DNA of 64,000 nt from Aliarcobacter vitoriensis (GTDB lineage: Bacteria > Campylobacterota > Campylobacteria > Campylobacterales > Arcobacteraceae), in contig NZ_PDKB01000010.1 of assembly GCF_003316695.1 (NCBI RefSeq), positions 1-64,000 on the forward strand, read 5' to 3'. Shown piece by piece: positions 22,736 through 29,888 of the stretch. A model generated the notes under the pieces. The model did no database searches. It was not told where the DNA came from and was given only the letters and a program-made list of their open reading frames with translations. Position 1 is the first letter of the stretch. Each line of letters starts with the position of its first letter. The position numbers and the translations under genes were made by a program.

Positions 22736-24202
22736 ATGCAAAACGGTGCACAGATTGAGTATGATTACTCAGTTGCTAAGTGTTTTACATTTACAACAAT
22801 ATTGTTTGGTATCATTGGTATGACTATTGGTGTTGTACTTGCTTTTCAATTAGCTTTTCCAGAGCTAAATTATTTAGCAGGGGAATATGGTACATTTAGT
22901 AGATTAAGACCATTGCATACAAATGGAGTTGCATTTGGATTTACACTAAGTGGTATTTTTGCAACATGGTATTATATATCTCAAAGGGTATTGAAAGTTT
23001 CATTAAAAGAGTCACCTTTTTTAATGGTAATTGCTAAATTACACTTTTGGTTATATTTTATAACTATTCTTGTTGCTGTTGTAACTTTATTTATGGGAAT
23101 TACAACATCAAAAGAATATGCTGAGTTAGAATGGCCAATAGACATCTTAGTTGTTGTTTGGTGGGTTTTATGGGGTATTTCTATTTTTGGAATAATTGGA
23201 ATTAGAAGAGAGAGAACTTTATATATCTCTATTTGGTACTTTATTTCAACATTTATTGCTGTTGCTATGTTATATTTATTTAACAATATGGCAGTTCCGA
23301 CATATTTATTCACTGATTATGGTTCATGGATTCACTCTGTTTCTATGTATTCAGGTACTAATGATGCTTTAGTTCAATGGTGGTATGGACACAATGCTGT
23401 TGCGTTCTTATTTACTACACCAATTATTGCTATGATTTACTACTTCTTACCAAAAGAATCTGGTCAAAATGTTTATTCATATAAATTATCTATCCTAGCA
23501 TTCTGGGGATTATTGTTTGTTTATTTGTGGGCTGGTGGACACCACTTGATTTATTCAACTGTTCCAGATTGGATGCAAACTATGGGTTCTGTTATGTCTG
23601 TTGTTCTTATTTTACCATCATGGGGATCTGCAATTAATATGCTTTTAACTATGAAAGGTGAGTGGAATCAATTACAAACAAATACATTAATTAAGTTTAT
23701 GGTTTTAGCTTCAACATTCTATATGTTATCTACAATTGAAGGACCAATTCAGTCTATTAAATCTGTTAATGCAATTGCACACTTTACAGATTGGATTCCA
23801 GGACACGTTCATGATGGTGTTTTAGGATGGGTTGTATTTATGATTATGGCAGCACTATTCCATATAGTTCCAAGAATGTTTAAAAGAGAGTTATATTCTA
23901 AATCTTTAATGGAAACTCAATTCTGGTTACAAATAGTTGGAATTGTTTTATACTTTACATCTATGTGGATTGCAGGTATTACTCAAGGTATGATGTGGAG
24001 AGCTTATGATGAGTATGGATCATTAGTTTATTCATTTATTGATACAGTTACAGTATTACATCCATACTATACAATTAGAGCAGTTGGTGGGTTATTATAC
24101 CTAATAGGATTCTTTATATTTACTTATAACATTTACAAAACAATTAGATGTGGAAGAGTTCTTGATAAAGAACCAGTAAATGCAACTCCAGTAGCTGCTT
24201 AA
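22736..24202 (+). CDS. ccoN: cbb3-type cytochrome c oxidase subunit I
   Basis: The catalytic heme-copper subunit of the high-affinity terminal oxidase. The 488 residues form about 12 membrane helices. Histidine ligands are visible in RPLHTNGVAFG, QWWYGHNAVAFLF, AGGHHLIYSTVPDW and DWIPGHVHDGVLGW. The ATG at 22736 has AGGAGG six bases upstream and is preferred to the TTG one codon earlier. ccoO follows after 14 bases. This oxidase is the usual terminal oxidase of microaerophilic Campylobacterota. Confidence 0.97.
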   Translation: MQNGAQIEYDYSVAKCFTFTTILFGIIGMTIGVVLAFQLAFPELNYLAGEYGTFSRLRPLHTNGVAFGFTLSGIFATWYYISQRVLKVSLKESPFLMVIAKLHFWLYFITILVAVVTLFMGITTSKEYAELEWPIDILVVVWWVLWGISIFGIIGIRRERTLYISIWYFISTFIAVAMLYLFNNMAVPTYLFTDYGSWIHSVSMYSGTNDALVQWWYGHNAVAFLFTTPIIAMIYYFLPKESGQNVYSYKLSILAFWGLLFVYLWAGGHHLIYSTVPDWMQTMGSVMSVVLILPSWGSAINMLLTMKGEWNQLQTNTLIKFMVLASTFYMLSTIEGPIQSIKSVNAIAHFTDWIPGHVHDGVLGWVVFMIMAALFHIVPRMFKRELYSKSLMETQFWLQIVGIVLYFTSMWIAGITQGMMWRAYDEYGSLVYSFIDTVTVLHPYYTIRAVGGLLYLIGFFIFTYNIYKTIRCGRVLDKEPVNATPVAA

Positions 24203-24216
24203 GAAAAGGAGAAAAA

Positions 24217-24882
24217 ATGTTTCATTGGTTTGAACAAAGACCGTTTTTCTTTGCGGTGCTAGTATTTATATTTGTTGCATTTGCAGGGATTATAGAAGTT
24301 ATTCCAGATTTTGCAAAACAATCAAGACCTACTGTTGGTACAAAACCTTACAGTGTGTTAGAGTTAGCAGGAAGACATGTTTATATTAAAGATTCATGTA
24401 ATGCTTGTCACTCACAATTAATTAGACCATTTAAATCAGAAACTGATAGATATGGTATGTATTCTTTATCTGGAGAGTATGCTTATGATAGACCATTCTT
24501 ATGGGGATCAAAAAGAACTGGACCAGATTTATTAAGAGTTGGAAATTATAGAACTACAGACTGGCATGAAAACCATATGTGGGATCCAAAAGCAGTTGTA
24601 CCTGGAAGTATTATGCCAGCATACAAACACCAATTTTCAAATAAAGCTGATATAGAAACAGCTTATGCAGAAGCATTAACTGTTAAAAAAGTATTTAACA
24701 CTCCTTATGATCAAGAAGGTATGCCTCAACTTGGTACTTGGGAAGAAGCAAAAGCAGCAGCTTTAGAAGAAGCTAAACTTATTGTAGCTGATATGAAAAA
24801 TGAGAGTGTTAAAAAAGCTGTTGAAAATGGTGAAGTTCCTGAAATAGTTGCATTAATTGCATATTTAAATTCTTTAAAATAG
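24217..24882 (+). CDS. ccoO: cbb3 oxidase monoheme cytochrome c subunit II
   Basis: The 221-residue subunit has one N-terminal membrane helix (about 10-30) and a periplasmic cytochrome c domain with CNACH at residues 61-65 in the standard DSCNACHSQLIRPF context. The later GSIMPAYKH supplies the methionine ligand. It passes electrons from CcoP to CcoN. Its ribosome-binding site is AAGGAG. Confidence 0.97.
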   Translation: MFHWFEQRPFFFAVLVFIFVAFAGIIEVIPDFAKQSRPTVGTKPYSVLELAGRHVYIKDSCNACHSQLIRPFKSETDRYGMYSLSGEYAYDRPFLWGSKRTGPDLLRVGNYRTTDWHENHMWDPKAVVPGSIMPAYKHQFSNKADIETAYAEALTVKKVFNTPYDQEGMPQLGTWEEAKAAALEEAKLIVADMKNESVKKAVENGEVPEIVALIAYLNSLK

Positions 24883-24891
24883 AGGTTTGTT

Positions 24892-25116
24892 ATGGAATAC
24901 GAAACACTTTTAACAGTACAAGGTTATGCTAAATTCTTTTTGGTTTTAGTTGTATTCATTCTATTTTATTCTTATGCTTTTTCTATTTATAGAAGAGATA
25001 AAAAAGGAGAAAGAGATTTTGAAAAATACTCAAAGCTTGTACATGATGATTCAAGTGTTTCGACTCCTCTTGAAGAGATAAAAAGAGAAAAAGATATAGG
25101 TAATAAGGAGAAATAA
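24892..25116 (+). CDS. ccoQ: cbb3 oxidase small subunit CcoQ
   Basis: A 74-residue protein with one membrane helix (about 13-31: FFLVLVVFILFYSYAFSIY) followed by YRRDKKGERDFEKYSKL, the charged tail expected of CcoQ/FixQ. It helps stabilise the complex in other bacteria. Position between ccoO and ccoP confirms the call. Confidence 0.92.
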   Translation: MEYETLLTVQGYAKFFLVLVVFILFYSYAFSIYRRDKKGERDFEKYSKLVHDDSSVSTPLEEIKREKDIGNKEK

Positions 25117-25117
25117 G

Positions 25118-26011
25118 ATGAAATCTATGGTTATAGGTGGAATAATTCTTATCATCGCATTAATGGCAGGAACTTACTTTGTTGCGGGTGATGCTTTTAT
25201 TAGTGATGATTATATTAATGCATTAACATTCTTAGGTGCAGCAGCAATTATTACGATTAGTACATTTGTTGTTCTAAAGTATGTTAATCAGATGAAAAAT
25301 GATACAGCAAGTGGTGAACTTGCTGATGAAAATTGGGATGGTATTGGTGAATATAAAAACCCTGTTCCAACAGGTTGGGCATTAGCATTCATAGGAACAA
25401 TACTATGGATGTTCTGGTACTTTACAATTGGTTATCCAATTACTGGGTTCTCTCAAATTGGACAATGGAATGAGGAAACAAATGAGTATAATGCTAAATT
25501 TGAGCAAAAATGGGTAAATGCAAATGAATCAACTTTAAATGCAATGGGGCAATCACTATTCTTAGTACAATGTGCACCTTGTCATGGTGTTGATGCAGAA
25601 GGAATTGCAGGAAAAGCTCAAGATTTAACAAAAAGAATGAGTAAAGATCAAATTATTTATACAATTAAAAATGGTTCAAATCATTTAACTCAATCTTATC
25701 CAGCTGGAATGCCTCCAATGATGCTAACAGAAGATGCTGATATTGAAGCAGTTGCTACTTATGTTGCAGGTGGGTTTAAAGGTGAGCAGCCAGTAGCTTA
25801 TGCAACTTGTTCAGCTTGTCATGGTGATAATGGTGAAGGTATGCCTTTTGTTGGTCCAAATATCAAATATTATGATGATGCAATTGTTTTTGCAGTATTA
25901 AAAGAAGGTAAAAAAGGTCTTTTAGGGCAAATGCCAAGCTTTAATGAGAGATTGAATGAAACTCAAGAAAAAGCTTTAGCTTCATATATTAGAAGTTTAG
26001 GAGATAAATAA
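25118..26011 (+). CDS. ccoP: cbb3 oxidase diheme cytochrome c subunit III
   Basis: The 297-residue protein has three hydrophobic segments before the soluble part (about 5-25, 36-54 and 87-105), one or two more than the simplest CcoP. The conserved GIGEYKNPVPTGWA precedes the last helix. Two heme motifs follow, CAPCH at 152-156 and CSACH at 231-235, each in a cytochrome c domain with a methionine-bearing MPP or MPS segment. It receives electrons from the bc1 complex or a soluble cytochrome. Confidence 0.96.
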   Translation: MKSMVIGGIILIIALMAGTYFVAGDAFISDDYINALTFLGAAAIITISTFVVLKYVNQMKNDTASGELADENWDGIGEYKNPVPTGWALAFIGTILWMFWYFTIGYPITGFSQIGQWNEETNEYNAKFEQKWVNANESTLNAMGQSLFLVQCAPCHGVDAEGIAGKAQDLTKRMSKDQIIYTIKNGSNHLTQSYPAGMPPMMLTEDADIEAVATYVAGGFKGEQPVAYATCSACHGDNGEGMPFVGPNIKYYDDAIVFAVLKEGKKGLLGQMPSFNERLNETQEKALASYIRSLGDK

Positions 26012-26259
26012 TGTCAAATAATACACAAATGAATGAGAACGAAAGAGGTATTTTTAAATTAAATGGTATTAGTGGAATGTTAGTTGCTGTTGTACTACTT
26101 TTAACTATTCTTGCTGTTTTAGTTACAAATGCTGTTTTAGTTCAACAAAGAGAAGCTACAAACGCATATAGCATTAATCAAGATTTACAAGGATTAAAAG
26201 CTAATAGCCCTGAAAACCATAAACAGTACCAATTAGTTGGTTCTGAAAATAAGGAGTAG
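26011..26259 (+). CDS. DUF4006 family membrane protein of the cbb3 operon
   Basis: The 82-residue protein has one membrane helix (about 24-46: MLVAVVLLLTILAVLVTNAV) flanked by polar ends. FKLNGISGM before the helix and VLVQQREATNAYSINQDL after it match the DUF4006 family, which I know from behind ccoP in Campylobacterota. The start shares one base with the ccoP stop (TAATG), implying coupling. Role is not established; a supernumerary oxidase subunit or assembly helper is likely from position. Confidence 0.8.
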   Translation: MSNNTQMNENERGIFKLNGISGMLVAVVLLLTILAVLVTNAVLVQQREATNAYSINQDLQGLKANSPENHKQYQLVGSENKE

Positions 26260-26262
26260 AGT

Positions 26263-26355
26263 ATGGATAAAATTATTGGTATTTTACTTTTAGTTGCCGC
26301 TATTATGACTGCATACTATGCATATTTCGACGCAGCAAAAGTATATGTTGGTTAA
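26263..26355 (+). CDS. Small single-helix membrane protein, 30 residues, in the cbb3 operon
   Basis: ATG at 26263 opens a 30-codon frame ending TAA at 26353-26355. The product begins MDKIIGILLLVAAIMTAYYA and continues with a short polar tail ending in YVG: one membrane helix with an aromatic girdle. AAGGAG sits seven bases before the ATG (26251-26256), over the end of the DUF4006 frame. The next ATG follows the stop directly. Precise packing and the ribosome-binding site argue for a real gene. Small helices such as CcoM, CcoQ and FixS accompany cbb3 oxidases elsewhere, but I cannot match this one to any of them. Confidence 0.7.
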   Translation: MDKIIGILLLVAAIMTAYYAYFDAAKVYVG

Positions 26356-26985
26356 ATGAAAGATTTTAAATTTATAAAAGTAGGAGTGATTTTTTCACTT
26401 CTACTTTTTTTATATACAAATAGCTTTGCACAAAATTATATTTTAAATGATGATAGTTTAATTGATGATAGAGCAAAGGTGAAAATCACTCAAATAGGTG
26501 AAGAAGTTAAATCTAAATTAGGTGTTAATATATATATCTATGCAAAATCTAATTTAGGTTTAGATGCTAATATTACAACAAAAGATAAAATAGAAATAGT
26601 TAAATTACATGAAAATGAAATTTTAAAAACTTTACAAACCCCTTATGTGCTAATTACAATTTATGTTGAAGAAAATATGGTAAATTTGAATTTCAGTGAT
26701 AATTTAAAAGATTCTATAGATAAAAATGATATTTTAAATGGATATGTAGTACCATTGCTTGCATCAAAAGATAAAAATACACTTTATGCAAAAGTTAGTG
26801 CTGCAACTTTAAACGGATATGCAGCTATTGCTGATAAATTAGCTGAAAAACAAGATATAAAACTCGAAAGTAGTATTGGAAGTGCTGGAAAAATATCTAG
26901 TACAATTTGGAGAGTTTTTATGTATTTTTTAATTATCAGCGGACTTTTAGCATATACTTATGCAGTATTAAGAAAGAGAAAGTAA
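26356..26985 (+). CDS. TPM-domain-like membrane-anchored periplasmic protein
   Basis: The 209-residue protein has a signal peptide (about 1-25, ending SFAQ), a periplasmic domain (about 26-165) and one C-terminal membrane helix (about 187-205) with a basic tail. The start of the domain, NDDSLIDDRAKVKITQIGEE followed by a GVNIYIYAKSNLG strand, looks like the TPM (YgcG-type) fold, as does VLITIYVEENMVNL. That family includes proteins tied to photosystem or respiratory-complex maintenance, but the match is by eye. It lies between the small membrane peptide and the CcoH-like gene, so a role in oxidase assembly is plausible. Confidence 0.55.
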   Translation: MKDFKFIKVGVIFSLLLFLYTNSFAQNYILNDDSLIDDRAKVKITQIGEEVKSKLGVNIYIYAKSNLGLDANITTKDKIEIVKLHENEILKTLQTPYVLITIYVEENMVNLNFSDNLKDSIDKNDILNGYVVPLLASKDKNTLYAKVSAATLNGYAAIADKLAEKQDIKLESSIGSAGKISSTIWRVFMYFLIISGLLAYTYAVLRKRK

Positions 26986-26986
26986 T

Positions 26987-27544
26987 ATGAAAAGAAATTA
27001 TTGGCCACTATTTTTTATAGGTATATTTAGTTTTGTTTTTTCAATGATAATATGGACAGTATCTAAAGCGATTAAAGCTCCAGTTATTGAAGATAGAAGT
27101 TTTTTGTTAAAATACCAAGATGTTGATGAAAATTATAATAAATTGATGGAAGCAAATGAAGAATTTCTATCAAAATATAATTTATCTTTTATACTAAATG
27201 ATAAAGATTTTGGTCTTACAACGGAAGATATAAAATATGGACAAAGAGTTATTGAAAAATACTCTAATCATAAAGATACATTAAAGATTGGTAATAATAC
27301 TTTAAAAGTTGTCGCTACATCAAAAGATAGCAATGAGAAGCAAGATATTAATATTGATTTAGTTATTACAAAAACAATGACAAATGACAATGACGTAGTA
27401 TTAAAACAAGATAAATTTGAAAATGTAAATAATGATTTTATATCAGAATTTGAAATAAGCCAAGAGACAAACTGGAATATTACAGGAAGTTTCAAAGTTA
27501 ATGATAGCATAGGCTATATTTTCATAAAGACTAATGCTAGATAA
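26987..27544 (+). CDS. CcoH/FixH-like cbb3 oxidase assembly protein
   Basis: The 185-residue protein starts MKRNYWPLFFIGIFSFVFSM, the basic-aromatic entry to a single N-terminal helix that characterises FixH/CcoH. A short periplasmic segment, VIEDRSFLLKYQDVDENYNK, is followed by a soluble domain that is more diverged and longer than classical CcoH. In other bacteria CcoH is needed for cbb3 maturation and stability. The 3' end overlaps the AddB-type gene by 11 bases. Confidence 0.65.
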   Translation: MKRNYWPLFFIGIFSFVFSMIIWTVSKAIKAPVIEDRSFLLKYQDVDENYNKLMEANEEFLSKYNLSFILNDKDFGLTTEDIKYGQRVIEKYSNHKDTLKIGNNTLKVVATSKDSNEKQDINIDLVITKTMTNDNDVVLKQDKFENVNNDFISEFEISQETNWNITGSFKVNDSIGYIFIKTNAR

Positions 27545-29888
27545 AAAGACTCTTTTTGTATTTCCTACAAGTAGAGCAGTAAAAGAGTATATTTTTGATT
27601 TTAAATCAAAAAATACTCTTCTTCCAACAACACTAACAATCGATGAATTTTTAAAAAAATCTATATCATTGAATTCTTATATATACGCTCAAGATGAACA
27701 AAGAGTTATATTTTTACATGAAGCTATAAAAAGTATTGATATAAAAAAACTTGGTATTTCAAATAGTTTTGTTAAGTTTTTAAAGCAAGGCGAGTATATA
27801 TATAGATTTTTTTTAGAGTTAAGTAGTGAAAAAATAGAAATTTCTAATTTGCAAAGAGCTGATACTTATGAATTTTATAGTGAGCATTTAGATATTTTAA
27901 ATCAAATATATAAAAATTATTTAGAGATTTTGGAAAAGAATTTATATGTTGACAAAGTAAATTTAGATAAGTTTTATACTATAAATGAGAGTTTTATAAA
28001 AAGATTTGATGAGATAACAATAGTTTATGAAGGATATTTTACAAAACAAGAGTATGAAATAATTAAAAAGATTTCACAAAAAACAAAAGTTTTTATAAAG
28101 TTTTATTCAAATATATACAACAAAAAATCTATAGAACTTTTTAAAGACTTCAACTATGATTTTAAAGTAGATTTTGAATATCTTATAAATTTGAGTTCAC
28201 TCGAAATTATAGAAGAAATATCTTCAAATAAAAAATTAGAAAATTTTGATATAAAAGGTTTTTCTACAAGATTTAATCAAGTTGCATATATAAAATCTAC
28301 CATCGTAAATTTGATAAATAAAGGTATAAATCCACAAAATATAGCTGTAATATTACCAAATGAGAATTTTGCACAAATTTTAGAGTTAAATGACAATGAA
28401 GAGTATTTTAACTTTGCAATGGGAAGAGATATAAAAAACAAAAAACTTTACCAACGAGCAAATAGTATATTTTTATATATAAATTCACCTGAAATTGAAA
28501 CTATGGAAGCTTTAAAATATTTTGACATAGATAAAAAATATGTAGATGAAAATATAAAATCAATTTGGAATATTCATATATCAAAAGAAACTTTTGAAAA
28601 TATTTGTGAATTTATAAAAAAAGATGAAGAAAACATTGAATTAGTAGAAAAATTTGATGAGTTAATATATAGATTAAATATCATATTTTTTACAAATCAT
28701 AATAATTTACGTCTAAAAGATGCTTATAAAATTTTTTTACAAAAACTAGATGAGATAAAACTAGATGATGCACATTCTGGTAAAATAACAGTTATGGGGC
28801 TACTTGAAACAAGAGCTATAAAATTTGATGCAGTTATAATTTGTGATTTTAATGACTCATATATTCCAAAAATATCTATAAAAGATAAGTTCTTATCCAC
28901 AAAAGTAAAATATTTAGCAAATTTACCTACAAAAAATGATAGAGAGAACTTACAAAGATATTACTACAAAAGATTGACAGATAACAGTAAAAATCTTTAT
29001 ATTTCATATGTTAGTTCAAATGAAGATGAAATTTCAAAATTTGCTTATGAACTTTTTACAAATATTAAAATTTCAACAAATGATGAAGATTATAAAGATA
29101 TCTTATATAAAAGTAAGAAATTAGAATATATTGAAGAAAATATATCTAAGGATATAGATTTAACAAAACAAATATGGTCTGCAAGTGGCTTGAAGACTTT
29201 TTTAGAGTGTAAAAGAAGATGGTACTTTAAATATATATTAAAATTAAATGAACATACTATTTCAAGACTTCCTAAAGCTTTTGAACTAGGTGATATTGTG
29301 CATAAAGTTTTGGAAGAATTTTACAAATATTCACAAAGAGATATAAACAAAGTTGATGAACTATTTTTAAAATACAAAAGTGATAATCCTTTTTTAATAC
29401 TCGATTTGGAAGTTTACAAACAAAAGTTAAAAGAGTTTTTAAAGCTCGATAAAGATAGATTAAAAACTAGAGATATTGTAGAAATTGAGAAAAAATTTAG
29501 CACAACTTTTAATGATTTTAGAATAACAGGAGTTATAGATAGAGTTGATAAATTTGAAGATGGTTTTGAACTCATAGATTATAAAACTTCAAGAACTTTG
29601 AAAGTAGATACTATAAATACTTATCCTAAATCTTATGATTTTCAGTTGGAGTTTTATTTTCTAGCTATTAAAGATTTGTATAAAAGTTCAAATATTAAGG
29701 CTTTTTATTTTGATTTATTTGAAAACTCTTTAAAAGAAGAAGTTGTATTAGAACAAAAACTAGAACTTTTAAAAACTATTTTTGATGATTTAAAAGAACA
29801 AAGTAAAGAAACAATAGATTTTTGTAAAACTGATGATAAAAGTATTTGCGAATATTGTACTTATAAAACTATATGTAATAGGGATTAA
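27534..29888 (+). CDS. addB: AddB-like PD-(D/E)XK nuclease/helicase-related protein with iron-sulfur cluster motif
   Basis: The 784-residue protein fits the AddB half of an AddAB double-strand-break resection complex. The N-terminal part has an inactivated helicase-like fold (LFVFPTSRAVKEYIFDF; RFNQVAYIKSTIVNLI). The C-terminal part opens with WSASGLKTFLECKRRWYFKY and carries the nuclease core (ELGDIVHKVLEEFY; ITGVIDRVDKFEDGFELIDY with its DYK). Four cysteines fit the AddB/Cas4-type Fe-S site: one near residue 557 in LECKRRW and C772, C775 and C781 in SICEYCTYKTIC. AddA is not in the window. The ATG lies inside the CcoH-like gene. Confidence 0.75.
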   Translation: MLDKKTLFVFPTSRAVKEYIFDFKSKNTLLPTTLTIDEFLKKSISLNSYIYAQDEQRVIFLHEAIKSIDIKKLGISNSFVKFLKQGEYIYRFFLELSSEKIEISNLQRADTYEFYSEHLDILNQIYKNYLEILEKNLYVDKVNLDKFYTINESFIKRFDEITIVYEGYFTKQEYEIIKKISQKTKVFIKFYSNIYNKKSIELFKDFNYDFKVDFEYLINLSSLEIIEEISSNKKLENFDIKGFSTRFNQVAYIKSTIVNLINKGINPQNIAVILPNENFAQILELNDNEEYFNFAMGRDIKNKKLYQRANSIFLYINSPEIETMEALKYFDIDKKYVDENIKSIWNIHISKETFENICEFIKKDEENIELVEKFDELIYRLNIIFFTNHNNLRLKDAYKIFLQKLDEIKLDDAHSGKITVMGLLETRAIKFDAVIICDFNDSYIPKISIKDKFLSTKVKYLANLPTKNDRENLQRYYYKRLTDNSKNLYISYVSSNEDEISKFAYELFTNIKISTNDEDYKDILYKSKKLEYIEENISKDIDLTKQIWSASGLKTFLECKRRWYFKYILKLNEHTISRLPKAFELGDIVHKVLEEFYKYSQRDINKVDELFLKYKSDNPFLILDLEVYKQKLKEFLKLDKDRLKTRDIVEIEKKFSTTFNDFRITGVIDRVDKFEDGFELIDYKTSRTLKVDTINTYPKSYDFQLEFYFLAIKDLYKSSNIKAFYFDLFENSLKEEVVLEQKLELLKTIFDDLKEQSKETIDFCKTDDKSICEYCTYKTICNRD

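Follow-up and report, generated by a model that had tools for sequence, protein, structure and literature searches.

A 30-residue membrane-protein gene in the cbb3 oxidase operon of Aliarcobacter vitoriensis is an ortholog of Campylobacter jejuni ccoY

Results

The window, a stretch of 64,000 nucleotides from Aliarcobacter vitoriensis, carries a cbb3 oxidase cluster on the forward strand in the order ccoNOQP-X-Y-Z-H. The catalytic subunit gene ccoN (22736–24202) matched TIGR00780 above its cut-off (E 3.4e-210), and ccoQ (24892–25116) matched Pfam FixQ above cut-off (E 6e-8), with a score of 51.7 bits against TIGR02736 (NCBIfam) that lies under the cut-off of 61.55. We assigned ccoO (24217–24882) by its position and CxxCH haem motif only, and ccoP (25118–26011) likewise only by position and two such motifs. 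The following gene, ccoX (26011–26259, 82 residues), encodes a DUF4006 protein (PF13179, E 1.2e-27, 96.1 bits versus a cut-off of 22). Downstream lie a ccoZ homolog (26356–26985, 209 residues), which falls in a common iterated profile family with C. jejuni Cj1484, and a ccoH homolog (26987–27544, 185 residues) recognized by its blastp similarity to Cj1483 of C. jejuni (29% over 72 residues, E 3.3e-6). The ccoZ homolog in the window by itself matched no Pfam or NCBIfam model, although Cj1484 has been described as a member of TPM/DUF5130. The end of ccoH is overlapped by an open reading frame of 784 residues (27534–29888) with a cysteine cluster close to its C-terminus, presumably resembling that of AddB-type nucleases; this frame may be the counterpart of cj1482c, which has been termed a possible helicase.

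Between ccoX and ccoZ, a frame at 26263–26355 on the forward strand opens with ATG, comprises 30 codons in total, ends with TAA and encodes MDKIIGILLLVAAIMTAYYAYFDAAKVYVG. The ccoX stop codon (TAG, 26257–26259) is followed by a gap of 3 bases and the ATG, about 6 bases upstream of which stands an AAGGAG, so that ribosome binding site and spacer (26250–26262) overlap the end of ccoX, and the TAA (26353–26355) directly abuts the next ATG at 26356. These letters confirm what the sequence-only reading had described, namely a frame with its own AAGGAG fitting exactly between the DUF4006 gene and the next start codon. No model in Pfam or NCBIfam matched the frame. The same reading had proposed a single hydrophobic helix as the product, in agreement with AlphaFold2, which predicted one helix spanning residues 2–29 with a mean pLDDT of 91.6. 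A search for a conserved helix face found none (conservation moment at 100 degrees, p 0.27 and 0.38), and neither the single protein nor two CcoY profiles matched a solved structure in the PDB at E≤10.

Frame length is uninformative here, given that 66 open reading frames of at least 25 residues overlap the surrounding 8.5 kb. This abundance of similar frames would fit a chance open frame in AT-rich DNA; the evidence for a gene comes from conservation. A single-sequence search of 60 genomes detected the open frame in 37 of the 37 genomes of the same family (own genome counted), and the two matches among 23 genomes of other families were at chance level (E 0.46 and 0.70; total 39/60). In 38 family loci, all frames had 30 codons and ended with TAA. 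Among 35 distinct sequences, the median dN/dS was 0.34 over the 584 unsaturated of 595 pairs, with values of at least 1 in six pairs, and the remaining five reading frames were broken by stops in 29 to 35 of the 35. In 30 disjoint nearest pairs drawn from 70 distinct sequences, with one member dropped where a pair differed at fewer than 2 positions, pS was 0.263 and pN 0.083 (pN/pS 0.317; Fisher p about 5e-29, approximate since site counts were rounded). Residues M1, I5, L9, A13, and G30 were invariant in the 70 distinct sequences, and an AGGA/AGGG-type core was present within 18 nucleotides upstream of all 70 homologous frames, by a lenient pattern. We conclude that 26263–26355 is a protein-coding gene under purifying selection at the amino acid level. 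Given this selection, the conservation in 37/37 genomes and a position kept throughout the phylum (see below), we reject a chance frame, the probability of which we consider negligible. A short translated leader that couples ccoX and ccoZ translation, with an irrelevant peptide, would account for a frame that fills its gap exactly and whose starts and stops abut or overlap those of its neighbors; yet the strong amino acid constraint, the membrane-helix character kept across loci of the phylum, and the persistence of the frame where its upstream or downstream neighbor differs make a leader highly improbable. Conservation and selection thus led us to reject a chance frame and a coupling leader, and a toxin-like lone peptide was set aside on account of the fixed genomic context.

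In C. jejuni, ccoNOQP is followed by cj1486c (ccoX, DUF4006), cj1485c (ccoY), cj1484c (ccoZ), and cj1483c (ccoH), and cj1485c, encoding 33 residues and one helix, was named ccoY and deleted in 2021 (PMC8267372). We recognized the C. jejuni genome in our set (G148; loci L051 and L187) by five primers from that study that matched without mismatch; its L051 locus has the order ccoP-ccoX-ccoY-ccoZ-ccoH as in the window, and its CcoY has 33 residues, in agreement with the publication. A profile of 33 non-Arcobacteraceae sequences matched a single frame of the entire A. vitoriensis genome at E≤10, the one at 26263–26355 (E 3.7e-4), and in each of the 15 Arcobacteraceae genomes searched the corresponding frame ranked first (E 1.7e-5 to 0.01). 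In the genome profile search, the alignment covers positions 3–22 only, so that the last third of the Arcobacteraceae protein lies outside the match to the C. jejuni-type profile. Profile-profile comparison (hhalign) joined the Campylobacter and Arcobacter types with a probability of 96.1%, and was weaker for the Helicobacter type against either Campylobacter (84.1%) or Arcobacter (71.9%) types, so that much of the case for the identity of the Helicobacter-type CcoY is its identical gene position. These type names were assigned by reading the sequences, the Arcobacter type being backed by named records.

The window gene thus shares with C. jejuni ccoY the position between ccoX and ccoZ downstream of ccoNOQP, the size class of about 33 residues with one helix, and sequence similarity by profile over the N-terminal two-thirds. 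It differs in having 30 rather than 33 residues and in its C-terminal end, which is FFDxxKVFVG-like in the Arcobacteraceae protein and LTPNHLFIG-like in the C. jejuni type. We conclude that it is the Arcobacteraceae ortholog of ccoY, a known kind of gene and not a new subunit. The suggestion that the frame could be an overlooked cbb3 subunit therefore stands insofar as this is a real small membrane-protein gene of the cbb3 operon, and falls as regards its having been overlooked, since ccoY (cj1485c) was named in 2021 (PMC8267372). In the library searched, that paper alone treated ccoY as an oxidase gene, and none of the matches listed, which for cbb3 and Arcobacter were 10 of 340, described CcoY in Arcobacter. 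The main text of PMC11955535, as far as available, does not name Cj1485 with ribosome profiling evidence.

Across 150 Campylobacterota genomes, ccoX (DUF4006) was found above cut-off in 142, and in all 142 CcoY adjoins ccoX or sits one gene further: directly behind ccoX in 136, and behind an inserted ccoG-like gene, identified by eye, in six. Conservation of the frame behind DUF4006 genes and synonymous substitution in excess (pN/pS 0.317 over the 30 disjoint pairs), both of which the sequence-only reading had proposed to check, were borne out. At the level of loci, a hydrophobic frame of 29–41 residues lies directly behind ccoX in 135 of 141 (131 of 137 distinct, L182–L185 duplicating L059, L065, L058, and L046), and in the other five ccoX genomes (G003, G009, G025, G031, and G036) the frame adjoins ccoX by coordinates. 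The six exceptions (L078, L092, L107, L129, L136, and L141) belong to two families, and profile search placed ccoY and then ccoZ behind their ccoG-like gene. In the eight genomes without ccoX above cut-off, no CcoY was found (best E 0.165); among 12 genomes checked for ccoN, it was present in none of these eight versus four of four genomes with ccoX. Named records had the frame in 80 of 80 loci, these being the 80 retained from 312 ccoX relatives, and included sequences between the Arcobacter and Campylobacter types.

Two genomes, G022 and G029, have second cbb3 clusters, the genes of which we named by reading their sequences. That of G022 runs ccoN-O-Q-P-X-Y, that of G029 runs ccoN-O-P-X-Y without ccoQ, and in both a sulfite/nitrite reductase-like gene follows. 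These second clusters of two Arcobacteraceae genomes are loci L032 and L035, of which L032 is the one without ccoQ. Both keep ccoX-ccoY without adjoining ccoZ or ccoH, so ccoY is tied to ccoX and the core of the oxidase; products of ccoZ, ccoH, and ccoQ missing from a second cluster might still come from the first cluster of the same genome.

These second clusters bear on the possibility that CcoY and CcoZ together link the oxidase to the cytochrome bc complex. All 135 loci that we examined carry a ccoZ-family member downstream of ccoY, as do the six loci split by a ccoG-like gene; the two genes overlap in C. jejuni, and their published deletions behave alike (PMC8267372). However, two paralogous clusters keep ccoX-ccoY with a sulfite/nitrite reductase-like gene in place of ccoZ, even if CcoZ from the first cluster could serve both, and the similar phenotypes may reflect the design of the deletion constructs. 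On balance, we regard a partnership with CcoZ as rather unlikely.

In C. jejuni, neighboring genes overlap: ccoX/ccoY and ccoY/ccoZ each share an ATGA. We placed the printed primers of PMC8267372 on L051. In the construct for ccoY, the left arm stops immediately upstream of the ccoY ATG, with loss of the ccoX stop codon, and the right arm starts 4 bases within ccoZ, with loss of the ccoZ ATG; judged by eye, a GTG in the printed adaptor may be in frame and substitute for the lost start codon. The ccoX construct, as printed and placed on L051, removes the ccoY ATG. At the ccoP-ccoX-ccoY-ccoZ junctions, which lie on the reverse strand of L051, the printed ccoX and ccoY constructs each remove the stop codon of the preceding gene and the start of the next. 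The cassette is said to permit downstream gene expression, a statement that does not address start codons, and the available text of PMC8267372 yielded no description of genetic complementation of the ccoY deletion strain. As the constructs are printed, the phenotype of the sole published ccoY knockout is confounded: with the ccoZ start and ccoX stop lost, the CcoY phenotype is inseparable from CcoZ, and may stem from CcoZ or CcoX, while the total loss of activity in the ccoX mutant is not attributable to CcoX alone, since that construct loses the ccoY ATG.

Discussion

We propose that the frame is a translated Arcobacteraceae ccoY ortholog, the product of which is a single membrane helix lying against the oxidase core or CcoX and aiding assembly or stability, a reading that we consider likely. 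CcoY would be made as a single membrane helix, alongside CcoNOQP and CcoX in a constant order, and would probably insert with its N-terminus inside and its aromatic C-terminal end and final glycine in the periplasm. Given that it is a lone helix without catalytic residues, encoded in the operon of a membrane enzyme, CcoY most likely packs on a partner helix, of the oxidase core or CcoX, within the membrane. There it would help the oxidase assemble or hold together, and oxidase activity without it would be lowered but not abolished. We infer translation in A. vitoriensis, binding of CcoY to the oxidase, and the choice of partner. In C. jejuni, the only organism in which full cbb3 activity has been reported to need CcoY, and by a confounded deletion construct, deletion of cj1485c reduced oxidase activity, though not to zero, and copper gave no rescue (PMC8267372).

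Other small proteins that are real oxidase parts support, by analogy only, a candidate role of CcoY as an oxidase part. CcoM of the Pseudomonas cbb3 oxidase is likewise a small one-helix protein tied to a cbb3 oxidase, and is described as needed for its stability and not its activity (PMC8267372, introduction); CcoY profiles match no PDB chain at E≤10, and the searched PDB set may lack a CcoM chain. CioY of the C. jejuni CioAB oxidase (34 residues, one helix) is encoded, like CcoY, beside an oxidase operon in a member of Campylobacterota, and binds its own oxidase by co-immunoprecipitation (PMC11955535). The likeness to CioY is one of description, and the partner of CioY is a bd-type oxidase, in contrast to cbb3 for CcoY.

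CcoY might instead be a transient assembly factor that stays outside the finished oxidase complex, as other genes beside cbb3 operons encode such factors (PMC8267372, introduction), the deletion leaves a lowered activity, and the nine proteins that mass spectrometry detected in putative supercomplex bands did not include CcoY, as reported in the available text (PMC8267372). However, so small and hydrophobic a peptide easily escapes detection, mass spectrometry after trypsin being ill-suited to it, and the tie of CcoY to every cbb3 cluster, paralogous ones included, fits a subunit equally well. We therefore hold a transient factor to be possible and less probable than a helix that stays with the oxidase. 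A broader proposal, which in our judgment could just as well hold as fail, is that CcoX and CcoY form an obligate pair of small membrane subunits defining the cbb3 oxidase of the whole Campylobacterota, with no cbb3 oxidase lacking the pair, neither protein occurring in the absence of cbb3, and both kept despite duplication of the oxidase cluster and loss of CcoQ.

Our analysis broadens the known range of CcoY from a single species to a phylum, as sampled by 150 Campylobacterota genomes, and associates it with the oxidase and CcoX, not with CcoZ. At 30 residues, the gene is of a size readily lost in annotation; it is strongly selected and accompanies the respiratory oxidase of microaerophiles in the genomes sampled, and the sole published ccoY knockout needs a clean repeat. 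Expression of cj1485c changes in one published data set (−1.68; PMC7099621).
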